A DNA stretch of 57,263 bases from Desulfuromonadales bacterium (lineage in GTDB: Bacteria; Desulfobacterota; Desulfuromonadia; Desulfuromonadales; JACZKF01). The notes under the pieces were generated by a model. That model made no database searches. It was given only the letters and a program-made list of their open reading frames with translations, and was not told the DNA's origin. Below are positions 28,571-29,745 of the stretch, piece by piece. Position 1 is the stretch's first letter. Every line of letters begins with the position of its first letter. The stretch spans positions 5,828 through 63,090 of the forward strand of contig JARFUG010000013.1 of NCBI GenBank assembly GCA_029289095.1, read 5' to 3'. The position numbers and the translations under genes were made by a program.

Positions 28571-29392
28571 ATGGCCAAAGAAGTACGCGCCGTCGTCATT
28601 GCCGGCAACGGAACCAACTGCGAACGGGAAGTCGCCAACGCCTGCCTGTTGGCAGGAGCCGAAACGGCCGACATCGTCCATATCGGTGAACTTCTCGCAG
28701 GCCGGGTGCGCCTTGCCGGCTATCACCTTCTCAACCTTGCCGGCGGCTTTCTCGACGGTGACGATCTCGGAAGCGCCAAGGCAGGCGCCAACCGTCTTCT
28801 GCACGCCCCCGTGCGGGGCACTCGCGAACACCTTATCGATCAGCTTCGCCCCTTCATTGCCGACGGCAAGCTGGTCATGGGGGTGTGCAACGGCTTTCAG
28901 CTCATGGTCAAGATGGGGCTTTTGCCTGGTCTCGGCGATGAGCGTCGCCAGACCACCACGCTCACCCACAACGACGGTGGCCGCTTCATCGACCGATGGG
29001 TCTACCTCAAAGCCGATCCGGCCTCCCCCTGCGTCTACACCCGGGGTCTCGACGGCATCTATCTGCCTGTGCGCCACGGTGAAGGGAAGTTCGTGACCGA
29101 ATCGGCAGAAGTCCTCGCGGAGATCGATCGCAAACACCTCGGCGCCCTCAAGTACGCTGACGCCGATTACCGCGTCGCAATGGAGGAGCCTTGGAACCCC
29201 AACGGTTCGATGGGCGCCATTGCGGGGCTGTGCGACGAAACCGGCCGACTCTTCGGGCTCATGCCTCATCCTGAGGCATACGTGCACCGCACGCATCATC
29301 CCCGATGGACCCGGGAAGAAGATCTTGCCGAAGACGGCATGGGGCTGCTTCTGTATCGCAACGCGGTGCGTTTCATCAGGGATGAACTCTGA
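28571..29392 (+). CDS. purQ: Phosphoribosylformylglycinamidine synthase glutaminase subunit
   Basis: A 273-residue class I glutamine amidotransferase. It has the nucleophile in GVCNGFQLM, HGEGKF, and the His-Glu pair in LMPHPEAYVHR. It passes ammonia to the PurSL synthetase, whose stop is two bases upstream. It is longer than Bacillus PurQ (about 227 residues) and resembles the glutaminase part of large PurL, which suits the PurS-PurL fusion next door. The start is ATG 28571, preceded by AGGGAG. Its stop codon lies inside the 11-base sequence duplicated by the element that follows. Confidence 0.93.
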   Translation: MAKEVRAVVIAGNGTNCEREVANACLLAGAETADIVHIGELLAGRVRLAGYHLLNLAGGFLDGDDLGSAKAGANRLLHAPVRGTREHLIDQLRPFIADGKLVMGVCNGFQLMVKMGLLPGLGDERRQTTTLTHNDGGRFIDRWVYLKADPASPCVYTRGLDGIYLPVRHGEGKFVTESAEVLAEIDRKHLGALKYADADYRVAMEEPWNPNGSMGAIAGLCDETGRLFGLMPHPEAYVHRTHHPRWTREEDLAEDGMGLLLYRNAVRFIRDEL

Positions 29393-29395
29393 CCT

Positions 29396-29590
29396 GAATG
29401 GCGCTAGTTTAAGGAAACGGATGTCAGCAAAACCGGGACTGTCCCCGCAGGGGGCTGTCCCTGGCTTTTGCGGCGCGAACCACCACAGTTGCATAGCCCG
29501 TAAACATCTGGGACAGCCCCCGATGGGGCCGGGGACAGTCCCGAGTTTACTCCATAGCAGTAGCAAGAAGGGCTTAAACTAGCGCCATTC
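29396..29590. mobile_element. 195-bp MITE with 18-bp terminal inverted repeats and 11-bp target duplication
   Basis: Perfect terminal inverted repeats: GAATGGCGCTAGTTTAAG at 29396-29413 and its complement at 29573-29590. The 11 bases AACTCTGACCT occur exactly at both edges (29385-29395 and 29591-29601), a classic target-site duplication; the left copy contains the purQ stop. There is no transposase. Inside lie paired GGGACTGTCCC-type palindromes (29434-29461 and 29510-29543) that can form a second nested hairpin resembling a REP doublet. IS4-type transposases make duplications of about this length, but the parent element is unknown. Confidence 0.9.
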
Positions 29591-29745
29591 AACTCTGACC
29601 TGTTCACTCCGAAAAGATTGCGCTGCGAGGCTATCTTTTTGAAGCAGTGTCGTGTTAATCTGACCGCTGCAGTCGGGAATACGTTTGAAAAAACGCGGGT
29701 TGCCTGCGACCCACGGAATCCAACATAGAGGAGTCGGTCCACTCC

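Follow-up and report, generated by a model that had tools for sequence, protein, structure and literature searches.

A probable IS4-subgroup MITE behind purQ that carries copies of the target palindrome of its own insertion system

The closest described systems are the IS4 subgroup, the element ISRm22 and the REPINs. Members of subgroup IS4 have the end -AATR--------WTW, a length of 1400-1650 bp and duplications of 10-13 bp, and the IS4 family as a whole is marked by the motif Y(2)R(3)E(6)K and the spacing D(60-110)D(100-150)E (PMC2266710). ISRm22, an IS4-family element of Sinorhizobium meliloti, inserts at the axis of palindromy of REP sequences and is bordered by 6-bp repeats (PMC1525189). 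The element described here lies between purQ and purF in a 57,263-nucleotide stretch of a Desulfuromonadales draft genome (the window) and resembles each of these in part. The ends, the length of 1.4-1.65 kb, the 10-13-bp duplications, YREK and the DDE spacing of subgroup IS4 (PMC2266710) all recur in the present system, which differs in that the MITE is transposase-less with a mostly non-IS interior and in that no named IS was assigned to its full-length partner. Insertion into REP palindromes is common to ISRm22 and to this system, both assigned to the IS4 family, whereas ISRm22 is a full IS with 6-bp repeats and the system here has 11-bp duplications, the defined target GGGACWGTCCC and a MITE carrying that target. 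With REPINs and RAYT-associated REPs, as these are outlined in PMC3116915 and PMC2817692, the element shares two inverted hairpin palindromes and the character of a short dispersed repeat; compared with the same outline, its core was found without a RAYT that it flanks and, in its own genome, only inside the IS4 MITE.

The MITE spans 29396-29590 (195 bp) and has no transposase gene, and the open frames that cross it were considered incidental. Direct reading of the window confirmed the original prediction of perfect 18-bp terminal repeats within an exact 11-bp duplication and of paired palindromes inside the element (Table 1). The proposed duplication of the purQ stop region without damage to the gene was likewise found, as purQ is intact and its stop TGA at 29390-29392 falls within the left duplication. 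With up to four mismatches allowed, no further copy of the 18-bp end was present in the window, and the chance expectation for the end-plus-duplication arrangement in the window was approximately 1e-9. At gathering score, the Rfam search of the whole window returned a tRNA only, and over the MITE locus a sub-threshold match only; an Rfam family was rejected as a candidate for the locus.

Table 1. Features of the element and of the purF upstream region, in window coordinates
Feature	Position	Strand	Remark
Left target-site duplication AACTCTGACCT	29385..29395		Holds purQ stop TGA; read from sequence
Left terminal inverted repeat GAATGGCGCTAGTTTAAG	29396..29413	+	IS4-subgroup end
Two-hairpin core AGCAAAACCGGGACTGTCCCC...GGGGACAGTCCCGAGTTTACT	29425..29552	+	Borders from free copies in relatives; approximate to a base or two
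First REP-like hairpin	29434..29461	+	
Internal palindrome GGGACTGTCCC	29435..29445		Identical to top-scoring IS4 target
Internal palindrome GGGCTGTCCC	29452-29461		
Internal palindrome GGGACAGCCC	29510-29519		
Second REP-like hairpin	29510..29543	+	Inverted relative to first hairpin
Internal palindrome GGGACAGTCCC	29532..29542		Reverse complement of GGGACTGTCCC
Right terminal inverted repeat CTTAAACTAGCGCCATTC	29573..29590	-	
Right target-site duplication AACTCTGACCT	29591..29601		Read from sequence
Promoter-like motif TATCTTTT-N-TGTGTTAAT	29632..29659	+	Before purF; conserved across nine relatives

Other copies in the genome, which had been anticipated, were recovered by a whole-genome search as nine full-length MITEs of 96-100% identity together with several partials at contig ends. 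The eight copies of 195 bp show 1-5 pairwise differences (mean 3.5), and since these are few and mostly private, a recent expansion was deduced. Most copies are flanked by 11-bp duplications, exact or with one mismatch; the duplication of one more insertion, split over contigs C62 and C90, was reconstructed across both as GGATGTGGCCC, and copy L004 is without one. The flanks of L004 and L009 (G000:C18 and C120) share AAGAGGGGG-type sequence, which suggests another repeat family as insertion site. The gap between purQ and purF is MITE-free in more than 20 relatives, namely those in which it was readable, including the only same-family genome (G001). These relatives are from outside the genus, and the comparison shows the MITE-free gap, not the empty AACTCTGACCT site itself. 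Of the empty sites that had been expected, the MITE-free gap was obtained; the single-copy AACTCTGACCT allele was not seen in these relatives. At L254 and L256 (genomes G002 and G022) the distance from purQ to purF is 1.26 kb, so that something else occupies the gap.

The insertion behind purQ is recent, and the original prediction to this effect is borne out by the near-identical multicopy elements and by the insertion-free orthologous loci. The same two observations, together with the precise duplications, refute the view that the locus is a chance palindrome or an immobile terminator-like sequence; strong hairpins are frequent in intergenic DNA, and this explanation was nonetheless deemed extremely improbable. 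Among the features expected of a MITE, short length, no transposase gene, terminal inverted repeats, direct duplications, multiple copies and ends shared with an autonomous element were found.

At least 116 stretches of other genomes contain the exact 18-bp end; most are of Desulfobacterota type, and the rest include Nitrospirae, Chloroflexi and others. The search for a full-length transposon with these ends was successful in other genomes only (L086, L100, L119, L126, L135 and L147), where the elements measure 1.55-1.59 kb (1555-1588 bp) and each encode one transposase, of 489-497 aa in most. The L100 transposase scored 206 bits with NF033592 (IS4 family; cut-off 115), has PF01609 and contains the YREK motif as YFKRWDVELFFRDIK, with DDE spacers of 75/116. 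Judged from its sequence, the partner is a member of the IS4 family, subgroup IS4, as the end sequence GAATGGCGCTAGTTTAAG, the YREK motif, the DDE spacing, the 11-bp duplication and the length of 1555-1588 bp all correspond to that subgroup. MITE and IS resemble each other mostly in the 18-bp ends alone. A transposase of this kind is present in 16 of 195 relatives. In the MITE's own assembly, searches for an IS4 transposase, PF01609 or a homologous protein found none, an absence that in a 154-contig draft is not proof; a resident IS4 transposase was rejected as a candidate on this basis. A search of the accessible literature for a name for the 18-bp ends or the core found no paper printing the ends, the single match to the palindrome was an unrelated diatom paper, and at the level of titles and abstracts nothing specific was found on MITEs in Geobacter.

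From 33 copies outside the MITE's own genome, some of which share one genome and are hence non-independent, the 11-bp target was GGGACWGTCCC, symmetric and centred on W. When the duplications of the own genome were scored with this matrix, which was trained on other genomes, 6/9 ranked within the best-scoring 0.63% of window 11-mers (binomial p = 5e-12). The purQ duplication AACTCTGACCT resembles half of the target palindrome and lies in the top 2.2% of window 11-mers, and two own duplications, ACATGTAATGT and GGGGCAGGGGA, match the target poorly. The target of the IS4 system is thus the same palindrome that is found inside the MITE. For IS231A, another element of the IS4 family, the target is reportedly GGG(N)5CCC, a result attributed to Hallet et al. 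in 1994. IS231A has in common with the present system a GC-ended symmetric target and a duplication of about 11 bp, and it differs in belonging to another subgroup with other ends; here the target centre is also specified (WCWGW).

In a relative, G073, sister elements were found inserted exactly at internal palindromes of a MITE, with two clear cases. The duplication at L296 (G073:C1:2187000-2188800) is GGGACTGTCCC and corresponds to the MITE palindrome at 29435..29445, while that at L301 (G073:C2:204900-205776) is GGGACAGTCCC, a palindrome of the relative's MITE. Because the sister elements sit exactly in these internal palindromes, it was concluded that elements do land there. The composites L327 and L231 appear nested and have one unclean boundary, and they were excluded from the count. 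The nested element at L296 and L301 is a second MITE type, with 18-bp ends as in the first type and a different interior.

In relatives the core AGCAAAACCGGGACTGTCCCC...GGGGACAGTCCCGAGTTTACT forms two inverted hairpins and is usually 125-129 bp long. The number of core ends per genome was 149 in G095, 71 in G073 and 59 in G067, against 0 for the reversed-pattern control, so that two inverted hairpins in many dispersed copies, as in REPINs, were found in three relatives (59-149 core ends). Among 39 core copies inspected in relatives, both IS4 ends were present in 14 and one end in 13, and neither was recognisable in 12. Several copies in G067 (L311, L314, L316, L317 and L318) have crisp core borders and nothing like an IS4 end at the expected distance. 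Since relatives have the core with no IS4 ends, the element looks chimeric, as if IS4 ends had come to enclose another repeat, and the core may be separable. Alternatively, the palindromes could be original to the MITE and the end-free copies could be old MITEs with decayed ends. The graded series of both, one and no ends (14/13/12 of 39) is consistent with this, but simple decay should erode borders and ends alike, whereas the G067 copies keep the former and lose the latter; decay was regarded as a serious, though somewhat unlikely, rival. The original prediction that one type of mobile DNA had captured another is therefore upheld as far as the core without IS4 ends and its sharp borders in relatives are concerned; a RAYT link for the core is not.

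The original prediction had likened the hairpins to REPs moved by RAYTs and had proposed a search for a RAYT gene. This search identified four Y1 transposase genes in the own genome, one of which is a proper RAYT (NF047646, 90.3 bits versus 80). It is flanked by GGGACACTCCC and GGGAGTGTCCC, a palindrome related to that of the core but different. The GGGACACTCCC motif has 11 sites in the own genome, 7/11 of them on the RAYT contig (G000:C112 27858-37064, locus L044). That the hairpins are genuine REPs which a RAYT moved and the MITE captured would agree with the presence of RAYT genes, with the two inverted, sharp-bordered hairpins without IS4 ends in G067 and others and with the abundance of core ends in G067, G073 and G095 (59-149 per genome, reversed pattern 0). 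This reading was nevertheless considered unlikely, since 22/22 exact GGGACTGTCCCC sites of the own genome are inside MITE copies and the RAYT subfamily examined is flanked by GGGACACTCCC/GGGAGTGTCCC and not by the core. Furthermore, the cores near these RAYT genes in G095 and G051 came as IS4-bounded insertions into the flanks, and among the G067 core sites listed, none has a Y1 transposase gene close by. The loci inspected included no RAYT gene with bare core in its flanks, and the cognate RAYT flanked by the same REP that characterises REPINs was not found, the flanking palindrome of the examined subfamily being GGGACACTCCC. A local RAYT-driven REP population of the palindrome in the own genome was rejected, as exact GGGACTGTCCCC sites are found there in MITEs only. 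The REP resemblance has a better-supported reason than a link to RAYTs, in that the IS4 element itself has the palindrome as its target.

What was shown is that the IS4 system uses RAYT-flanking palindromes as targets, rather than that a RAYT moved the core. Of nine genes of the RAYT subfamily obtained by family search, 4/9 have an IS4-type insertion within approximately 65 bp. Five insertions were observed near these genes versus 0.015 expected, the expectation being based on approximate copy densities for each genome in order to correct for a sample of genomes chosen as MITE-rich. Near the RAYT in G095 and G051, the insertion lies in the GGGACACTCCC palindrome, and the GGGACACTCCC flanks of this one RAYT subfamily have received full-length IS and MITE alike. 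A further IS4-type insertion beside a RAYT, L120, was found through the end sequence. One RAYT, at L224 (G051:C1:116000-120000), has IS4-type elements in both flanks, of which one is a MITE and the other a full IS, and GGGAGTGTCCCGAATGGCCC beside the full IS looks like the leftover of an end. Two full-length IS4 copies, L328 and L335, have inverted rather than direct target copies (GGGACACTCCC / GGGAGTGTCCC), which copies recombining with each other may have produced.

We therefore favour, with a probability of about 0.85, a non-autonomous cut-and-paste MITE of subgroup IS4 that carries a REP-like doublet of its own targets. A full-length relative (~1.56 kb, 489-497 aa transposase) would supply in trans the enzyme that binds the 18-bp ends and excises the MITE, and this transposase presumably was once present in the own genome or sits in an assembly gap. 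The excised MITE would enter the 11-bp palindromic target GGGACWGTCCC or half of it, with duplication of 11 bp, and at purQ the insertion would have taken the half-site CTCTGACC, which overlaps the stop codon. As the REP-like doublet, which would at some stage have come to lie between the IS4 ends, contains copies of the target, each MITE copy would spread fresh target sites, and sister elements have used such internal targets in a relative. More tentatively, and at somewhat less than even odds, the MITE could be a self-seeding landing pad; its cargo would be another two-hairpin repeat, one that moves independently and has the palindrome that the IS4 transposase prefers as target. On this view the IS4 elements, the core and the RAYT genes, the last with targets in their flanks as well, would make up a community of three in which insertion sites for one system are supplied by another and elements stack inside each other and not in genes.

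With these data, a widespread IS4-subgroup element gains a defined 11-bp target, and RAYT-flanking palindromes are recognised as real insertion sites for such an element. The MITE is a natural case of an element carrying its own target, and whether palindromic repeats shelter genes by absorbing transposons becomes a testable question. The result also guards against a likely misreading, in which GGGACTGTCCC hairpins in such elements are taken as a mark of RAYT activity.

With regard to purF, the MITE folded as single-stranded RNA at -104 kcal/mol (z = -8.9 versus shuffles), and this very stable hairpin may, as a predicted effect, reduce read-through from purQ into purF. An effect of the MITE on purF expression is possible. 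The motif TATCTTT-N-TGTGnTA is located 99-124 nt before purF in the own genome and in nine relatives, and the MITE was inserted upstream of this promoter-like motif, which is intact.
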